DNA of 64,000 nucleotides from Marinirhabdus gelatinilytica (lineage in GTDB: Bacteria > Bacteroidota > Bacteroidia > Flavobacteriales > Flavobacteriaceae), in NCBI RefSeq assembly GCF_003353425.1, contig NZ_QRAO01000002.1:108454-172453 (forward strand). Reading direction: 5' to 3'. Shown piece by piece: positions 23,121 to 30,042 of this stretch. The position numbers and the translations under genes were made by a program. The notes beneath the pieces were generated by a model. That model saw only the letters and a list, made by a program, of their open reading frames with translations, ran no database searches and was not told the origin of the DNA. Numbering within the stretch: the stretch's first letter is position 1; every line of letters begins with the position of its first letter.

Positions 23121-23143
23121 TTAATTAGAATTGTTCTAAATAA
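23121..23143. promoter_or_regulatory. ICE/Fur-like operator 1
   Basis: A 23-bp pseudo-palindrome whose core is TTAGAA-TTG-TTCTAA, extended on the right by ATAA. It sits just upstream of the -7 box of the haem-binding gene, where a bound regulator would block RNA polymerase. The core matches TTTAGAANNNTTCTAAA, the iron control element of the Fur-family regulator Irr; which regulator acts here is not known. Confidence 0.6.
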
Positions 23144-23147
23144 TATT

Positions 23148-23155
23148 TAGCTTTG
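23148..23155 (+). promoter_or_regulatory. -7 promoter box TAGCTTTG
   Basis: Perfect TAnnTTTG match 20 bp before the ATG at 23176, starting 4 bp after operator 1. Confidence 0.65.
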
Positions 23156-23175
23156 CACTTTAAAACCCTAACAAC

Positions 23176-23655
23176 ATGAACAAATTTCTAAAATATTTCT
23201 TATTGCTGGCCCTCACAGCATTTGTAGTCATCCAGTTTATACGTCCCGAAAAGAACAACGGAGGCTATGAAAGCGTTATGGCCTTTGAGAAAGAAACCAA
23301 CCCCAGTGCCGAAGTAGCCGATATCTTAAAAACCAATTGTTACGATTGCCATAGCAACCAAACGCAATACCCTTGGTATGCAGAGATTGCCCCTATTTCC
23401 TTCTGGCTGGACGAACATATCGAGCACGGAAAGGGACATTTTAATGTTTCGGAATGGGATAGTTACTCCACAAAAAAGAAAGACCATAAACTCGAAGAAC
23501 TTATAGAATTTGTAGAAGAAGGTGAAATGCCACTGGATTCCTACACGTGGTTACACGGCGATCTCTCTGAGGATGAAACCAAGCTCCTCCTGCAATGGGC
23601 TGGGCTTACGAGACTTAAGTATAAAGAAAAACTTGAAGTTTCCCTGAACCCATAA
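23176..23655 (+). CDS. Haem-binding domain protein (Haem_bd, cytochrome c-like)
   Basis: 159 aa with a single N-terminal TM/signal segment (LKYFLLLALTAFVVIQFI). The haem attachment motif CYDCH lies at about residues 55-59, in the block NCYDCHSNQTQYPWYAEIAP. WLDEHIEHGKGHFNVSEWDSY and EMPLDSYTWLHGDLSEDE follow, as expected for PF14376. It should be a membrane-anchored periplasmic c-type haem protein passing electrons or sensing haem. It has its own promoter, operator and terminator, and shares the operator type with the next operon. Confidence 0.9.
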   Translation: MNKFLKYFLLLALTAFVVIQFIRPEKNNGGYESVMAFEKETNPSAEVADILKTNCYDCHSNQTQYPWYAEIAPISFWLDEHIEHGKGHFNVSEWDSYSTKKKDHKLEELIEFVEEGEMPLDSYTWLHGDLSEDETKLLLQWAGLTRLKYKEKLEVSLNP

Positions 23656-23667
23656 CAGTCCTTATTT

Positions 23668-23690
23668 TTATTTAAATTTATTCTAAATAA
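23668..23690. promoter_or_regulatory. ICE/Fur-like operator 2
   Basis: A 23-bp pseudo-palindrome with left half TTATTTAAATT and right half ATTCTAAATAA. It lies upstream of the -33 region of the DUF4856 promoter and overlaps the first base pairs of the terminator of the previous gene. Confidence 0.55.
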
Positions 23691-23722
23691 GCTTGTGTGT
23701 TTTACACAGGCTTTTTATTTTT
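23689..23722 (+). terminator. Terminator of the haem-binding gene, fused to the next promoter
   Basis: AAGCTTGTGT at 23689-23698 pairs with ACACAGGCTT at 23704-23713 (one G-U) around GTTTT, followed by TTTATTTTT. The T-tract contains the -7 box of the next operon. Confidence 0.75.
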
Positions 23723-23738: not shown

Positions 23739-23761
23739 TTATCTATATTCAGTCTAAATAA
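23739..23761. promoter_or_regulatory. ICE/Fur-like operator 3
   Basis: A 23-bp pseudo-palindrome with left half TTATCTATATT and right half AGTCTAAATAA, in the short leader before the DUF4856 ATG at 23769. It would act as a roadblock or as the second of two sites flanking the promoter. Confidence 0.55.
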
Positions 23762-23768
23762 ATTTAAA

Positions 23769-24992
23769 ATGAAAAGAATTTTTTTCTCTACCCTAATTAT
23801 AGCAGCAATCTTTACCTCCTGTTCCTCAGACGACGATGCGGGAACCCCTATTTCTGAAAACGTAGAAGCCCCAGCAACCTATACTTTTGAGCGTGACGGA
23901 CAATCTACCGTTTCCTTCAGTGGACAGACCACAAGAATCCTAATGGCTGGAGAACTTGTTTCGGCTTTCAACGATTTCGATAATGCTACCCAAGAATCCC
24001 TTCAGAATATGTTTGCCCACGTTGAGGGTGCTGAAGATTTCAGTGATCCAGATTTAAATGCTTCTGATAAGAGTGTACGTAGCAAAACAGCTGCTTCTAA
24101 AGACTTTTTTGGAGCAAATGCTACCGAGTCTTCACAAATTAAAGCAACTTTCGACGGGTACATCGCTACACAGATCAACGAAGTGTTCCCAAATCAAAAT
24201 GTAGCTGCGACTCCTGGCGTTGCAGGACAGATTGCAGATGGCTCTTCTGCTAGGTACGTTACAGGAAATGGGTTGGAAATGAACCAAACCTTCGCCAAGG
24301 GGTTGATTGGTGCCCTAATGGCAGACCAAATGCTGAACAACTATTTGGGAACGGCCGTGCTGGACGAAGCCGATAACCGTGAAAATAATAACAATGATGT
24401 AACGGCCGAAGATAAACCATACACCACCATGGAGCATAAATGGGACGAGGCGTATGGATACCTTTTTGGTGCCAGTACCAATGCAGCAAATCCACTTCAA
24501 ACGCTAGGTGAGGATGATGCTTTTCTCAATAAATATCTTGGAAGGGTAGAGGGAGATAGCGATTTTGCAGGAATAGCCCAAGATGTTTACGATGCCTTTA
24601 AGCTGGGACGTGCGGCAATTGTTGCAAAGAACTACGAGGTGCGTGATGCACAGGCTGAAATTATCCGTGAAAAGATTTCAGAAGTGATCGCTATTCGCGC
24701 TGTACATTACCTACAAAGCGGAAAGACAGCTATAGAGAACCAAGATTTTGGGGCAGCATTCCACGATCTTTCTGAAGGATACGGTTTTGTGTACAGCCTT
24801 CGATTTACCAGAAACAATCAAGATGATATGTCTTATTTCAGCAGAAGCGAAGTAGATGGGTTTATAGAAGATATAATGACGGAAGGTCCCAACGGGCTTT
24901 GGGATGTAACACCCGCCACTCTGGATGCAGTATCAACGGCCATAGCTGCCAAGTTTGACTTTACGGTAGCACAAGCCGCAACAACAGATTGA
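23769..24992 (+). CDS. DUF4856 lipoprotein
   Basis: 407 aa. The signal peptide ends at IFTSC (lipobox), followed by an acidic SSDDD surface-export-like stretch. About 35-400 is the DUF4856 domain: ATYTFERDGQSTVSFSGQT, GEDDAFLNKYLGRVEGD and a mainly helical C-terminal half (AVHYLQSGKTAIENQDFGAAFHDLSEGYGFV). The function is unknown. It is the first gene of the run DUF4856-imelysin-HTTM-TonB receptor behind iron-type operators, so a role in metal or haem capture at the outer membrane is inferred. A hairpin separates it from the imelysin gene. Confidence 0.85.
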   Translation: MKRIFFSTLIIAAIFTSCSSDDDAGTPISENVEAPATYTFERDGQSTVSFSGQTTRILMAGELVSAFNDFDNATQESLQNMFAHVEGAEDFSDPDLNASDKSVRSKTAASKDFFGANATESSQIKATFDGYIATQINEVFPNQNVAATPGVAGQIADGSSARYVTGNGLEMNQTFAKGLIGALMADQMLNNYLGTAVLDEADNRENNNNDVTAEDKPYTTMEHKWDEAYGYLFGASTNAANPLQTLGEDDAFLNKYLGRVEGDSDFAGIAQDVYDAFKLGRAAIVAKNYEVRDAQAEIIREKISEVIAIRAVHYLQSGKTAIENQDFGAAFHDLSEGYGFVYSLRFTRNNQDDMSYFSRSEVDGFIEDIMTEGPNGLWDVTPATLDAVSTAIAAKFDFTVAQAATTD

Positions 24993-25008
24993 ATTTGAAG
25001 TAGCCAAA

Positions 25009-25040
25009 GCAACCTATTTCTATGTAAAGAAATAGGTTGC
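25009..25040 (+). terminator. Perfect 12-bp hairpin after the DUF4856 gene
   Basis: GCAACCTATTTC at 25009-25020 pairs perfectly with its complement at 25029-25040 around an 8-nt loop and is followed by TATTTTGTATTTTTG. It could attenuate rather than end transcription, since the following T-rich tract contains the -7 box of the imelysin gene. Confidence 0.75.
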
Positions 25041-25047
25041 TATTTTG

Positions 25048-25055
25048 TATTTTTG
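25048..25055 (+). promoter_or_regulatory. -7 promoter box TATTTTTG before the imelysin gene
   Basis: Perfect TAnnTTTG match 20 bp before the ATG at 25076, located in the T-rich tail of the hairpin above. Confidence 0.55.
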
Positions 25056-25075
25056 CACCCCCTAAAAAAGATCCG

Positions 25076-26191
25076 ATGACAAGAAAAATTTTGATACTTT
25101 TTGCCTTTATAGCAGTAGCTTACGCGTGTTCCGAAAGTGACGATACGGGTTCTCCAGGCACCAATGACTCGTTTGACCGCTCCTTAATGCTCGTACATTG
25201 GGCAGACAACATTATTATTCCTTCTTACCAAGATTTTGTACCCGCAACGGTTAATTTAAGAACAAGTACAACTATTTTTGTGGATGAGCCTACGAGTACA
25301 AGCTTGAACGATCTGCGCCAAAAGTGGGAAACAGCGTACCTTTCTTTTCAAAATGTCTCAATGTTCGAGATTGGCCCGGCCGAAATGGTTCGATTTCGCG
25401 ATAGGATGAATACCTATCCAACAAATATTTCTGAAATCTCACAACTCATCGCAAATGGCACCTACGATTTCAGCCTACCTTCAACCAACGATGCCCAGGG
25501 GTTCCCAGCAATGGATTACTTGCTCAATGGACTTGGTGACGATAGCGAAACATTGGCGTTTTACACTACCGATACAAATGCCGAAGCCAACCGAAATTTC
25601 TTGGCAGATCTTGCCAACGCTATACATACACTCTCTGAAAATGTACTGGCTGATTGGTCCAGCAGTTTTCGTGACGATTTTGTGAACAACGACGGATCGT
25701 CTGCCTCTGCTTCGGTAGATAAGTTGACCAACGATTATATCTTTTATTATGAAAAAGCCCTTCGTGCGGGAAAAATAGGGATTCCTGCAGGTGTTTTCTC
25801 TAACGACCCACAACCCCAAACGGTGGAAGCTATGTATGCTGAAGATTTTTCAAAAGCATTGGCAATGGAATCTCTGCAAGCCACCGAGCGCTTCTTTAAG
25901 GGACAATCCTTTAATGGAAACCAAGTAGGACCAAGCTATGAAGCCTACCTTGATTTTTTAAATACCATTAAGAACGGTGAAGATTTAGGTAGTTTGATAA
26001 ACAGCCAGTTTACCAAAGCAAAAACCGAGCTGAACGAACTGGACGACAATTTTGTGAACCAAATCGAAACGGACAATTCAAAAATGCTTGAAGCATACGA
26101 CGAGCTGCAACGTAATGTAATCTTGCTGAAAGTGGACATGCTACAAGCTTTGAGCATAGATGTAGATTACGTGGATAGCGATGGTGACTAA
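25076..26191 (+). CDS. Imelysin-family lipoprotein (M75/IrpA-like)
   Basis: 371 aa from the ATG at 25076, which gives a clean signal peptide ending at AVAYAC (lipobox). An earlier in-frame start lies at or before the promoter box. It is all-helical with two repeats: a first block LRQKWETAYLSFQNVSMFEIGP and a second one with MEALQ-like helices near the C-terminus. The GxHxxE signature of imelysins reads GFPAMDYLLNG, so His is replaced by Pro and Glu by Asp. Imelysin-like proteins act in periplasmic iron uptake (EfeO-M75, IrpA). Its stop overlaps the HTTM start codon. Confidence 0.87.
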   Translation: MTRKILILFAFIAVAYACSESDDTGSPGTNDSFDRSLMLVHWADNIIIPSYQDFVPATVNLRTSTTIFVDEPTSTSLNDLRQKWETAYLSFQNVSMFEIGPAEMVRFRDRMNTYPTNISEISQLIANGTYDFSLPSTNDAQGFPAMDYLLNGLGDDSETLAFYTTDTNAEANRNFLADLANAIHTLSENVLADWSSSFRDDFVNNDGSSASASVDKLTNDYIFYYEKALRAGKIGIPAGVFSNDPQPQTVEAMYAEDFSKALAMESLQATERFFKGQSFNGNQVGPSYEAYLDFLNTIKNGEDLGSLINSQFTKAKTELNELDDNFVNQIETDNSKMLEAYDELQRNVILLKVDMLQALSIDVDYVDSDGD

Positions 26192-27555
26192 TGAAACCAC
26201 TACTTGAAAAATATATGGAAAAGAGTACGGAGGCCGCCCCACTGGCGGTCTTTCGTATTTTTTTTGGTGTAATGATGTTTTTCAGTATCGTTCGCTTTTG
26301 GGCCAATGGGTGGATTTCAACATTATACATCGAGCCTGAATTCCATTTTTCTTATTACGGTTTCGAATGGGTAAAACCAATGGGAGCTTTTACGTATGTT
26401 TTGTTTGCTGTTTGTGGTCTTTCAGCCATAGCGGTTTCAGTGGGGTATAAGTACCGTATAGCCATTGTTGCCTTCTTCTTGAGTTTTACGTACATCGAGT
26501 TGATGGACAAGACCACCTATCTAAACCATTACTACTTTATAAGCTGTTTGGCCTTCCTCATGATTTTTCTGCCTGCTGAAAGATATTTTTCCGTGGATGC
26601 AAAACATAATCCTGAAAAAGCCAGTTTTTATGTACCACAATGGACCATCGATACCATTAAGATCTTGTTGAGCATGGTTTACCTTTACGCCGGTCTCGCA
26701 AAATTGAACAGCGACTGGCTCCTAAAGGCAATGCCACTAAAAATCTGGTTACCTTCAAAATACGATATCCCGTTTCTTGGAGATTTGTTACAGCAAGAGT
26801 GGGTGCACTATGCTTTTAGTTGGGGCGGTGCTGTTTACGATCTTGCTATCCCATTCTTGCTATGGAACAAAAGAACACGCTGGTTTGGTTTTGCTTTAGT
26901 GGTTGTTTTCCACGTATTGACCCGCGTATTGTTTCCCATAGGGATGTTCCCATTCATTATGATAGTGAGTGCGCTCATCTTCTTTAATGCCGGGTTTCAC
27001 CACAAGGTGCTATCTTTCGTTTCAAGGATGTTCAGGATTTCAAAAGATATTTGGGATGCGGAAATCAATACAGTAAAAGTTACTTCATCCAGAAGCTTTC
27101 AGTTTTATATAATTGCTGGATTTTTGGTGTTTCAGCTCTTGTTTCCGTGGCGCTATATACTGTACCCGGGCGAACTCTTCTGGACCGAGGAAGGCTACCG
27201 TTTTTCGTGGCGTGTCATGTTAATGGAAAAAGCTGGCTACGCCCAATTTAAAATAAGGGACGGAGAGACTGGAAAACAATTTTTGGTCAATAACAGCGAC
27301 TTTCTGAATCCTTTTCAGGAAAAACAAATGAGTTTCCAACCAGATTTTATCGTAGAATATGCACACTTTTTGGGAGAACATTTCAGCAGTCAGGGACACG
27401 AGAATTTGGAAGTATATGTAGAGAGTTACGTCGCACTCAATGGAAGATTGAGTAGGCCATACATTAACCCCGAAGTAAATTTATTGGAAGTAGAAGATAC
27501 TTTTGCACCAAAGGATTGGATACTTCCGTTCAACGATACTATAAAAGGACTTTGA
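26191..27555 (+). CDS. HTTM-domain membrane protein (vitamin K gamma-carboxylase-like)
   Basis: 454 aa. About 1-310 is a multi-pass HTTM domain: APLAVFRIFFGVMMFFSIVRF, YIELMDKTTYLNHYYFISCLAF, VYLYAGLAKLNSDWLLKAMP, ALVVVFHVLTRVLFPIGMFP. The C-terminal 130 residues form a soluble beta-rich part (FSWRVMLMEKAGYAQFKI) as in vitamin K-dependent gamma-glutamyl carboxylase relatives. The bacterial substrate is unknown. It overlaps the imelysin gene by 1 bp and precedes the TonB receptor, so it belongs to the same transport unit, probably modifying or assisting one of these envelope proteins. Confidence 0.87.
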   Translation: MKPLLEKYMEKSTEAAPLAVFRIFFGVMMFFSIVRFWANGWISTLYIEPEFHFSYYGFEWVKPMGAFTYVLFAVCGLSAIAVSVGYKYRIAIVAFFLSFTYIELMDKTTYLNHYYFISCLAFLMIFLPAERYFSVDAKHNPEKASFYVPQWTIDTIKILLSMVYLYAGLAKLNSDWLLKAMPLKIWLPSKYDIPFLGDLLQQEWVHYAFSWGGAVYDLAIPFLLWNKRTRWFGFALVVVFHVLTRVLFPIGMFPFIMIVSALIFFNAGFHHKVLSFVSRMFRISKDIWDAEINTVKVTSSRSFQFYIIAGFLVFQLLFPWRYILYPGELFWTEEGYRFSWRVMLMEKAGYAQFKIRDGETGKQFLVNNSDFLNPFQEKQMSFQPDFIVEYAHFLGEHFSSQGHENLEVYVESYVALNGRLSRPYINPEVNLLEVEDTFAPKDWILPFNDTIKGL

Positions 27556-27563
27556 TTAAAAGA

Positions 27564-27590
27564 CCTTTCAGGTTTTTAAAACCTTGAAGG
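27564..27590. repeat. Imperfect intergenic palindrome before the TonB receptor
   Basis: CCTTTCAGGTTTT at 27564-27576 faces AAAACCTTGAAGG at 27578-27590. It fills most of the 57-bp gap between the HTTM and receptor genes and could act as a processing or attenuation hairpin within the operon. Confidence 0.5.
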
Positions 27591-27612
27591 GACTGGGAAA
27601 AAGAATATATAA

Positions 27613-30042
27613 ATGAAATTGAAACTAAGTATCCTACTTATCCTCATTGCCGCTACGGTTTCAGCACAAATAACCCTTCGCGGAACTATTAATGCTGAAG
27701 CTACCGGAGCCCCCATTGCCAATGCTGAGGTATATATAACCAACCTTTCAAGAAGCACCACGACAGATGCCGAGGGAAATTATGTTTTTGAAGATCTTCC
27801 ACAGGGAAGCCATACCATAGTGGTCTTTAGTTTTGAATATGAGATTGGAGAAAAAACGGTACAGCTTTCCGGAACGACACAGCTTAATTTTAGATTACCA
27901 CTTTTGGGCGAAACACTTACCGAAGTACTCATCACCAAACGTAAAGAACGCATTTTTGCATTAAAGCAACTCCGTGATGTAGAGGGTACGGCAATCTATG
28001 CAGGAAAAAAGAACGAGGTAGTTGTAATGGATAATCTCACGGCTAATATTGCCACGGGTAATGCCCGCCAGATCTATGCCCAAGTAGTTGGGCTTAATAT
28101 CTACGAAAACAATGATGCAGGGTTGCAATTGAACATAGGTGGAAGGGGGTTGAATCCCAACCGTACCTCCAATTTCAACACACGCCAAAACGGTTACGAT
28201 ATTTCTGCCGATGTCTTGGGCTATCCCGAAAGCTATTATACCCCTCCTGCCGAAGCCATAGACCAAATAGAGGTTGTGCGTGGTGCAGCCTCATTACAGT
28301 ACGGAACCCAGTTTGGGGGCCTCATAAATTTTAAGCTGAAGAAACCCAACCCCAATAAAGAAATTGAATGGATTTCACGCCAGTTTTTGGGCAGTTACAA
28401 TCTGTTTACCAGTTTCAATAGCTTGAGTGGCACCGTAGGTAAGGTGGGGTATTATACCTACTTTAATTACAAAACTGGAAACGATTTCAGGCCCAACTCA
28501 CAATTTGACAGCTACAACGCCTTTGCAAAGGTGGCTTACGAAATTTCAGAAAAGACAAAGCTAACCGGCGAGTTCAGTTTTTTGGATTATCTGGCACAAC
28601 AGCCCGGAGGTCTTACCGATAGCCAATTTGAAGAAGACCCAACCTTCAGCAACCGTACCCGCAACTGGTTTAAGGTAAACTGGAAGTTGTATTCGCTATT
28701 GTTGGAGCATCAATTTTCAAAGAAAACTGAGATGAGCCTAAACCTCTTTGCCTTGGACGCCTCCCGAAAAACAGTAGGATTTCGTGAAAATCGTGTGTCA
28801 CAGGTGGACAATCTTGACGCCCCACGAGAGTTGATCGTGGGACAGTTCAGAAACTGGGGTGCTGAGGGTCGTATCATTACCCGTTATAATCTGCTCGAAA
28901 ACGAGAACACAATTCTATTGGGCGCTAAATATTACCAGAGCAACAACCAAGAACGCCAAGGGCCAGGAACCAATGGTAGTGATGCCAACTTCAGTTTTGC
29001 AGATGCCGAATTTCCCAACTATGCAAGACAGAGTGATTTTACGTTCCCAAATGTGAACGTTGCATTATTTGCTGAAAATATCTTTCAGTTCTCCGAAAAA
29101 TTTTCAGTGACACCCGGGCTCCGTTTTGAATACATAAAAACCGAAAGTGAAGGAACCTACAAACAGATAAATTTTGACAATGCTGGGAACCCTATCTTAA
29201 ACGAGACCATCCCCGACAACCGAACGTTTGATCGCTCGTTTGTCCTCGTGGGAGTAGGATTGAGCTATAAAGTGAGCAAAAATTTAGAGGCCTACGGAAA
29301 TTTTAGCCAGAATTACCGCTCGGTTACCTTTAACGATATCAGGATTACCAATCCGTCGCTCACCGTGGACCCAAATATCACAGATGAAAAAGGGTTCACT
29401 GCAGATCTGGGAGTGCGTGGCACTTTTAAAAACGTAGTACGGTACGATGTGGGCACATTCTTTTTGAGCTATGAAGATAGGCTAGGGGTGATCTTGCGAG
29501 CTGTGAGCGATATACAGCAGGAGCGCTTCCGTGGAAATATTGGTGATGCCGTGACGTATGGTGTGGAAAGTTTTATAGATTGGAATATCTGGAAAACATT
29601 TTCAGCTAACGAAAATTTCAGGCTCAATGTGTTCTCAAATGTAGCGTTGACCGATAGTGAATACACTTCCTCCCAAGAAAACAATGTAGTGGGCAATAAG
29701 GTAGAGTTCATCCCCAATGTCAACTTAAAAACTGGGATTGGGTTTGGTTATAAAAATTTTTTGGGAAGCTTGCAGTACACCTACCTAAGCAAGCAATTTA
29801 CCGATGCCACGAACAGTGAACGCGATTTTACAAGCCAGAGCGGTATTGTAGGGGAGATTCCTGCGTACGACATTTTGGACCTATCGATACGTTATACTTA
29901 CAAAATGTTCCGTCTGGAAACAGGGATAAATAACTTACTGGACAATCGTTATTTTGTACGAAGGGCAACGGGCTACCCAGGGCCGGGGATTATTCCCAGC
30001 CAACCCAGAACGTGGTATGCTGGGTTGCAGTTTAAAATTTAG
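27613..30042 (+). CDS. TonB-dependent outer membrane receptor
   Basis: 809 aa with a signal peptide (ILLILIAATVSAQ). About 20-105 is a carboxypeptidase-regulatory-like Ig fold (ITLRGTINAEATGAPIANAE). About 110-230 is the plug, with VVMDNLTANIATGNARQIYA and EAIDQIEVVRGAASLQYGTQFGG. The rest is a 22-strand barrel ending in the aromatic strand RTWYAGLQFKI. Overall it resembles FecA/iron-citrate or siderophore receptors more than the SusC sugar type. It should import an iron chelate or haem. It is the last gene of the operator-controlled unit and overlaps the convergent Cys-rich gene by 4 bp. Confidence 0.93.
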   Translation: MKLKLSILLILIAATVSAQITLRGTINAEATGAPIANAEVYITNLSRSTTTDAEGNYVFEDLPQGSHTIVVFSFEYEIGEKTVQLSGTTQLNFRLPLLGETLTEVLITKRKERIFALKQLRDVEGTAIYAGKKNEVVVMDNLTANIATGNARQIYAQVVGLNIYENNDAGLQLNIGGRGLNPNRTSNFNTRQNGYDISADVLGYPESYYTPPAEAIDQIEVVRGAASLQYGTQFGGLINFKLKKPNPNKEIEWISRQFLGSYNLFTSFNSLSGTVGKVGYYTYFNYKTGNDFRPNSQFDSYNAFAKVAYEISEKTKLTGEFSFLDYLAQQPGGLTDSQFEEDPTFSNRTRNWFKVNWKLYSLLLEHQFSKKTEMSLNLFALDASRKTVGFRENRVSQVDNLDAPRELIVGQFRNWGAEGRIITRYNLLENENTILLGAKYYQSNNQERQGPGTNGSDANFSFADAEFPNYARQSDFTFPNVNVALFAENIFQFSEKFSVTPGLRFEYIKTESEGTYKQINFDNAGNPILNETIPDNRTFDRSFVLVGVGLSYKVSKNLEAYGNFSQNYRSVTFNDIRITNPSLTVDPNITDEKGFTADLGVRGTFKNVVRYDVGTFFLSYEDRLGVILRAVSDIQQERFRGNIGDAVTYGVESFIDWNIWKTFSANENFRLNVFSNVALTDSEYTSSQENNVVGNKVEFIPNVNLKTGIGFGYKNFLGSLQYTYLSKQFTDATNSERDFTSQSGIVGEIPAYDILDLSIRYTYKMFRLETGINNLLDNRYFVRRATGYPGPGIIPSQPRTWYAGLQFKI

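Follow-up and report, generated by a model that had tools for sequence, protein, structure and literature searches.

A conserved DUF4856, imelysin, HTTM and TonB receptor module in Marinirhabdus gelatinilytica as a probable variant of the imelysin-type iron-uptake operon

Classic Fur-regulated imelysin operons are known from Pseudomonas aeruginosa (PA4370-PA4373) and Leptospira (lruB) (PMC3143127, PMC7567364; papers given by PMC number are cited from parts of their text), and the imelysin fold recurs in the EfeUOB system. In this study, a window of 64,000 nucleotides from Marinirhabdus gelatinilytica (contig NZ_QRAO01000002.1, positions 108,454 to 172,453; "the window" denotes this whole stretch) was analyzed, in which consecutive genes encode a DUF4856 lipoprotein, an imelysin, an HTTM protein and a TonB-dependent receptor. 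This module is a variant of the imelysin-type iron-uptake operon and is new here. It shares with the classic operon the IPPA-type imelysin (PA4372), Fur/iron control and a putative oxidative partner, but has DUF4856 in place of the GxHxxE imelysin and the di-haem protein, and adds HTTM or a hydroxylase as well as its own in-operon TonB receptor. The EfeU permease and EfeB of EfeUOB are not found in the module.

A similar run is known from Riemerella anatipestifer, listed in a table of Fur-regulated genes as RAYM_09779 (TonB receptor), 09784 (vitamin K-dependent gamma-carboxylase), 09789 (imelysin) and 09794 (hypothetical) (PMC5609570). From the gene order we infer that RAYM_09794 is DUF4856. 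The run appears in the table, and the discussion in the available text concerns the receptor only. In the main texts of the Leptospira lruB papers, as far as available, imelysins are mentioned along with a gene for a di-haem or thiol oxidoreductase, and "carboxylase" was not found. Open-licence literature on imelysin/HTTM, DUF4856 and gamma-carboxylase/imelysin yielded the Riemerella table alone (PMC5609570), in agreement with the original prediction, made from the letters of the window, that the unit is uncharacterised. The module is laid out as follows:

23670..23688, no strand assigned: Fur-box-like operator ATTTAAATTTATTCTAAAT, located about 100 bp ahead of DUF4856 and differing from ATTTAGA-N5-TCTAAAT by one mismatch
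23741..23759, no strand assigned: second Fur-box-like operator ATCTATATTCAGTCTAAAT, two mismatches, about 28 bp before DUF4856
23769..24992, + strand: DUF4856 lipoprotein (PF16148, E 1.4e-148), Cys18 followed by SSDDD
25008..25041, + strand: strong hairpin with a stem of 14 in the DUF4856-imelysin gap (consensus scan)
25076..26191, + strand: imelysin lipoprotein, IPPA/PA4372 type (PF09375, E 1.5e-26), with GFPAMD replacing GxHxxE and a C-terminal coil with DGD end
26191..27555, + strand: HTTM, homologue of vitamin K-dependent gamma-carboxylase (PF05090, 1e-79; PF22777 VKGC lumenal domain, 5e-60)
27613..30042, + strand: TonB-dependent receptor, FecA-like, with an N-terminal CarboxypepD_reg domain (Pfam)

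All four genes lie where they had been predicted, on the + strand, and imelysin and HTTM overlap by the expected 1 bp (TAATG). The imelysin likely starts at ATG 25076 instead of the listed TTG 25037. By family membership, HTTM is a membrane protein.

The order DUF4856, imelysin, HTTM, TonB receptor constitutes a conserved module. In 247 evenly drawn genomes of the same class (source genome, G000), PF22777, the lumenal part of HTTM, was present in 71, DUF4856 in 66 and imelysin in 95. Fisher p-values for co-occurrence, which ignore the relatedness of the genomes, were 4e-19 for HTTM/DUF4856, 1e-25 for HTTM/imelysin and 1e-30 for DUF4856/imelysin. An imelysin was located at most 4 kb upstream on the same strand for 55 of 93 HTTM places, and all 55 loci were fetched, the window included. 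DUF4856 immediately preceded the imelysin in 52 of them, with 10 of these copies escaping detection by Pfam (E 0.001), and the receptor immediately followed HTTM in 53, the contig ending in the remaining two. Three loci have no DUF4856 ahead of the imelysin. For L147 and L148, it is present on another contig; the third, L146 (genome G225), is a hybrid operon of GxHxxE imelysin, di-haem protein, DGD-tailed imelysin, HTTM and FecA-like receptor, and the Pfam search matched no DUF4856 anywhere in that genome. Similarly, among the best 80 matches listed from a separate HTTM-profile scan (the named loci), 74 displayed the exact four-gene order, four were cut by a contig end and two belonged to Roseivirga (L199, L210). 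The DUF4856 of L210 is 59% identical to that of the window, and a Fur-box-like site precedes it. Most titles of the named loci name Flavobacteriia; Ekhidna, Roseivirga, Fulvivirga and one Balneola metagenome-assembled genome also occur. The flanking genes differ between loci. The co-occurrence analysis suggested in the original prediction thus found the families together often in both sets.

Some neighbours of the module were seen in passing. In one family (f11; L080, L091-L093, L124), a gene of about 300 amino acids lies directly before DUF4856, whether HTTM is present or not, and the copy scanned (L093) has a type IX secretion sorting tail. Furthermore, one HTTM-less module is preceded, at a distance of about 2 kb, by an additional TonB receptor gene that belongs to the same cluster (L089:3144-5381).

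Control by iron was assessed with the query ATTTAGA-N5-TCTAAAT at up to two mismatches, a consensus from Riemerella Fur (PMC5609570); mononucleotide shuffles and the operon-internal stretch before HTTM served as controls. Of the named loci, 76 have DUF4856 in place; an upstream Fur box had at most two mismatches in 74 of these and at most one in 60, versus about 1.5/76 in shuffles and 1/76 in the stretch before HTTM (at most two mismatches). In the 247-genome sample, a box with at most two mismatches preceded DUF4856 in 45 of 52 HTTM loci and in 7 of 10 HTTM-less loci (inside the operon 0/52 and 0/10; shuffles 7/1040 and 1/200). The pattern was not enriched genome-wide in G000 (30 sites versus 36 for the reversed control), and the case therefore rests on the conserved position upstream of DUF4856. 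The sites originally described as "ICE-like operators" are thus present, but are Fur-box-like palindromes, conserved before DUF4856. Contig C1 of G000 (L109, L111, L112) has other sites with one mismatch, located in the gap that separates a hemA-like gene from an AraC-type regulator and, as two sites, before the gene of a small cysteine-rich protein, with gene identities assigned by reading of the sequence.

The published data from Riemerella show iron control. RAYM_09779-09794 rose under iron restriction (wild type, 2.1-3.1), and the Fur-box consensus derived in that work is the one used above (PMC5609570). Two points weigh against simple repression by Fur: iron restriction still raised these genes in the fur mutant (2.7-3.1), and loss of fur with iron present raised them by 1.4-1.9 only. 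In the available text, none of them is listed in the Fur-box table, and the four promoters bound by purified Fur were others (PMC5609570). Fur alone therefore does not explain the Riemerella genes; iron control is plain, and Fur is one part of it. The proposed link of the unit to iron is borne out by boxes and response together, and a signal unrelated to metals is not what was found. Bizionia argentinensis also carries the module (L223), and an imelysin-like gene and TonB receptors, not matched to the module genes, are lowered in its mliR mutant (PMC9478572, in part).

Comparison of the receptor profile with solved structures revealed the ferric dicitrate receptor FecA as nearest (1e-40, plug and barrel, 668 profile positions), followed by the next structure at 8e-19, while the haem receptor PhuR reached 3e-12. 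The plug is strongly conserved throughout the module. A FecA-type N-terminal signalling domain was not found, as Pfam places CarboxypepD_reg at that end. Since FecA is nearest and PhuR far, a ferric chelate is favoured over haem as ligand, and an HmuYR-type haem receptor is not indicated. Uptake of iron is a well-supported function of the module, and uptake of haem an unsupported one.

Both lipoproteins are probably located on the cell surface. At least two acidic residues occur within six after the lipid cysteine in 74/75 DUF4856 and 60/76 imelysin proteins, counted among proteins fitting a lipid-cysteine pattern that itself requires one charged residue nearby. This stretch resembles the lipoprotein surface-export signal described in the part of PMC5080379 available. 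The model of DUF4856 is all-helical (pLDDT 92.6). Foldseek gave nothing with E <0.001 in the PDB, and sequence searches of the PDB gave nothing of note. The best VIA-align match, to FliS (Z 8.2), may be merely a common helical arrangement; likeness to the imelysin fold (3n8u_B, Z 4.5 over 138 residues) stands among unrelated helical matches. Ten of 35 members showed weak similarity to an FEA1-related lipoprotein, the best at 1.4e-6; the protein from the window scored 25.6 bits against a cut-off of 250. Terminator-like hairpins were no more numerous in the region than in shuffles (consensus scan). Stems of at least 13 occurred in 16 of 70 related DUF4856-imelysin gaps (at least 25 bp) versus 3 of 700 mononucleotide shuffles. 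This hairpin is possibly a partial terminator or RNA stabiliser, and as it recurs, DUF4856 may be produced in excess of the downstream genes.

The model of the window imelysin confirmed the fold, with Z of 30.6-32.6 to 3pf0, 4ecg and 7xrx (ICMP 32.6, 4ecg 31.8, IPPA 30.6; EfeO/EfeM about 21). At the position of GxHxxE, module imelysins mostly have G-x-P-x-x-D/E, with G in 65/65 and Pro at the place of His in 45/65; no His is among the six residues listed there, which cover 64/65. The C-terminal DGD is kept in 64/65 sample imelysins and 76/77 from the named loci. In the model this tail forms neither helix nor strand (mean pLDDT 81 for residues 361-370, 61 for the last two). The structure 3pf0 shares the end (STDGD), and its last six residues are disordered (PMC3143127, in part). 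In 12 further imelysin loci, all seven second imelysins end in DGD, six of them beside a di-haem gene, versus 0/10 GxHxxE imelysins. The tail therefore marks the IPPA type, not HTTM. As a side observation, IPPA-type imelysins end in DGD whichever their enzyme partner (L260-L264, L266, L267). By its sequence, the window imelysin is placed with the IPPA/PA4372 type.

Human vitamin K-dependent gamma-carboxylase (GGCX), the enzyme acting on clotting factors, is a homologue of HTTM. The window protein aligns over its whole length (residues 9-447 on human 55-505, E 2.9e-42), which upholds the predicted kinship. K171, H113 and N112 of the window correspond to K218, H160 and N159 of GGCX. The 29 linked HTTM proteins compared, out of 55 in the sample, are invariant at Lys218, His160, Asn159, Ala214, Trp223, Gly259, Phe286, Phe299 and Met402 (GGCX numbering), and 25 of them keep Tyr395. 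In the human structure, these nine residues form part of the catalytic and vitamin K pockets or line them, with Lys218 as catalytic base and His160 and Asn159 in the Glu pocket (PMC12589487, in part). We read the HTTM protein as one in which the chemistry may be kept and the substrate changed.

A second HTTM paralogue occurs in G000 on contig C1 (L066:7646-8971) and L107, and also in G165. It follows a run of prs, rplY, pth and ribF-like genes, named by reading, and retains GGCX N158, N290 and M401, which are lost in the iron-linked HTTMs. To our knowledge, no pathway is known for bacterial relatives of vitamin K-dependent carboxylase, and a Leptospira homologue reportedly does not act as a protein carboxylase. 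Bacteroidota make menaquinone.

Ten fetched modules consist of DUF4856, imelysin and receptor without HTTM, and the presence of HTTM changed at least five times on well-supported branches of the receptor tree (63 rows, quick search). One gene family, found before, behind or divergent, adjoins 7 of 13 HTTM-less loci versus 0 of 55 HTTM loci. By its family (PF04116) it would be a membrane di-iron hydroxylase. Its nearest named model is OlsE at 46-50 bits (cut-off 475), and the three histidine boxes are invariant in 7/7. With a cut-off of E 1e-40, it was found in 14 of the 247 genomes. These comprise 11 of the 17 genomes whose module has no linked HTTM, 2 of the 55 whose module has it (Fisher p 2.6e-7), and 1 of 175 others (G056), where DUF4856 and imelysin are on separate contigs. 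Among five independent pairs taken from the tree, hydroxylase and HTTM changed in parallel in none and in opposite directions in 4.5 on average. An order-level repeat with 10 genomes, two of them new, revealed the receptor in nine, HTTM in two and the hydroxylase in six, never both enzymes, and neither in two. Additionally, another 50 HTTM genomes, taken from the 80 named and including many close relatives, were searched and the hydroxylase was not found in any; this search contained no positive genome, and the same query matched in the 247-genome and order-level searches. The repeated changes in HTTM presence on the receptor tree and the hydroxylase in HTTM-less module genomes are new here.

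Not all observations fit a replacement. Six of the 17 HTTM-less module genomes lack the hydroxylase; two have HTTM on another contig (G039, G174), one has unlinked HTTMs (G155), one has neither enzyme (G214), and two have short contigs in genomes 85% and 76% complete (G089, G239). With five tree contrasts, a sign test cannot pass 0.0625. A Fur box with up to two mismatches preceded none of 13 hydroxylase copies tested (of 14). In 4 of the 11 genomes (G054, G185, G212, G241), the gene is located elsewhere, and the replacement therefore falls short of proof. Copies in families f11 and g56 lie away from the module with lower scores, overlapping the two copies from HTTM genomes, and are only putatively orthologous to the module-linked hydroxylase. 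On balance, there is good evidence, short of proof, that the hydroxylase replaces HTTM. Lack of oxygen as the cause of HTTM loss was considered and dropped, as COX1 is present in 238 of the 247 genomes, HTTM-less module genomes included.

With moderate confidence, we interpret the module as an iron-repressed (Fur-box) operon for uptake of a ferric chelate, with a modification step by HTTM that the hydroxylase takes over in some lineages. The genes would be expressed under iron shortage. DUF4856 and the IPPA-type imelysin would capture the ferric ligand or hand it over to the FecA-like receptor, which would move it through the outer membrane. HTTM would be an inner-membrane protein whose GGCX-type active site points to the periplasm and, with menaquinol and O2, would oxidatively modify an exported lipoprotein or the ligand; in several lineages, the membrane di-iron hydroxylase may assume this step. 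The action of HTTM is probably enzymatic. The imelysin and DUF4856 are each unlikely as its target, and most of the remaining probability falls on the ligand or a lipid.

Several findings besides those on the hydroxylase and on Fur weigh against this interpretation. Likeness to FecA reflects plug and barrel homology, the ligand residues being outside the comparison. In 29/29 HTTMs, GGCX K217, N158 and R436 are replaced by Ala, Leu and Gln or Met, M401 by Val and N290 by Thr (G258 is variable), and there are no cysteines at the Cys99-Cys450 disulfide. HTTM ends near human residue 505, so that lobe 2, which binds the propeptide, and the Arch domain are missing. VKOR is absent from G000 and present in 4 of 71 HTTM genomes, with no association. 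In Roseivirga, DUF4856 is followed by HTTM with neither imelysin nor receptor adjoining. Together with L146, whose HTTM is accompanied by an imelysin in a genome without a DUF4856 match, these loci mean that neither adjoining lipoprotein is obligatory. The Roseivirga loci lower the odds for the imelysin as target of HTTM.

HTTM could alternatively be a true glutamyl gamma-carboxylase, with gamma-carboxyglutamate (Gla) on imelysin, DUF4856 or receptor binding Fe(III) or Ca2+. The retained Lys218, His160, Asn159 and Tyr395 would fit, as would the two lipoproteins with their lipid cysteines, which must cross the periplasm, and Glu columns that tilt to HTTM-plus modules (55 versus 10 modules: imelysin 356, 0.76 versus 0.30; imelysin 284, 0.38 versus 0; receptor 217, 0.68 versus 0.20), a comparison judged weak with just 10 related HTTM-minus rows. 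In five close pairs of our choice, however, none of the imelysin and DUF4856 columns shows loss of Glu in at least three pairs, while two receptor columns do so in 3/5; no Glu column clearly tracks HTTM, and no substrate site was found. Since the propeptide-binding part and a VKOR link are lacking as well, we regard this reading as unlikely, and Gla as an improbable product.

Equally doubtful is a redox role, in which HTTM would not be a modifying enzyme but would alter the valence of iron by means of menaquinol and O2, in the position of the di-haem protein or EfeB of other imelysin operons. In the classic operon, the IPPA-type imelysin has a di-haem protein as partner, L146 has both enzymes, and the alternative enzyme, the hydroxylase, is by family again an O2-using metalloenzyme. 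However, no metal site is described for GGCX in the available text (PMC12589487), and the strict conservation of the Glu pocket would be left unexplained.

It is also unlikely that HTTM is a passenger that the operon structure retains, with a function in membranes or lipids outside uptake and a hydroxylase link due to lineage. HTTM is dispensable, and in Roseivirga it follows DUF4856 alone; the nearest hydroxylase model, though far below the cut-off, is a lipid enzyme (OlsE), and independent contrasts are few. Against this stand the 55 of 93 HTTM places, spread over many families, that directly follow an imelysin, the kept active site and the Fur-box operon.

Haem import had also been proposed, and the gene upstream of the module bears on it:

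23123-23655: Haem_bd gene (CxxCH) with Fur-box-like site and a terminator-like hairpin behind it
23123-23141: Fur-box-like site AATTAGAATTGTTCTAAAT ahead of Haem_bd, one mismatch
23689..23713, + strand: terminator-like hairpin with a stem of 11 after the Haem_bd gene (consensus scan)

Haem_bd ends 113 bp ahead of DUF4856 and has its own Fur-box-like site, and iron control equally fits haem. Given the hairpin behind it, Haem_bd looks like a separate unit; it adjoins the module in no other fetched genome, the receptor is FecA-like with a far weaker match to PhuR, and the imelysins PIBO and IPPA show no specific haem binding in the available text (PMC3143127). The haem part of the original prediction was thus not borne out, and a haem importer including Haem_bd is very unlikely.

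Finally, HTTM and hydroxylase could be interchangeable O2-dependent modifiers of acidic lipoprotein residues, foremost D-x-D-G-D in the Asp-rich C-terminal coil of the imelysin, where carboxylation by HTTM or hydroxylation by the hydroxylase would make the acidic residues a strong ligand for Fe(III), one accepted by the FecA-like receptor; the Roseivirga loci lower the odds of this, and we give it very little credence.

Returning to the ferric-chelate interpretation, an HTTM with kept catalytic residues in an iron-controlled operon offers concrete candidate substrates and a testable growth condition for this family, and its apparent exchange for the hydroxylase provides a second handle on the chemistry. 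DUF4856, with its confidently predicted fold and no clear PDB match, is tied to iron uptake. If modification of the D-x-D-G-D coil were true, the module would carry an iron chelator that is part of a protein and is made after translation, and the vitamin K-dependent carboxylase family would have a native role in bacteria.

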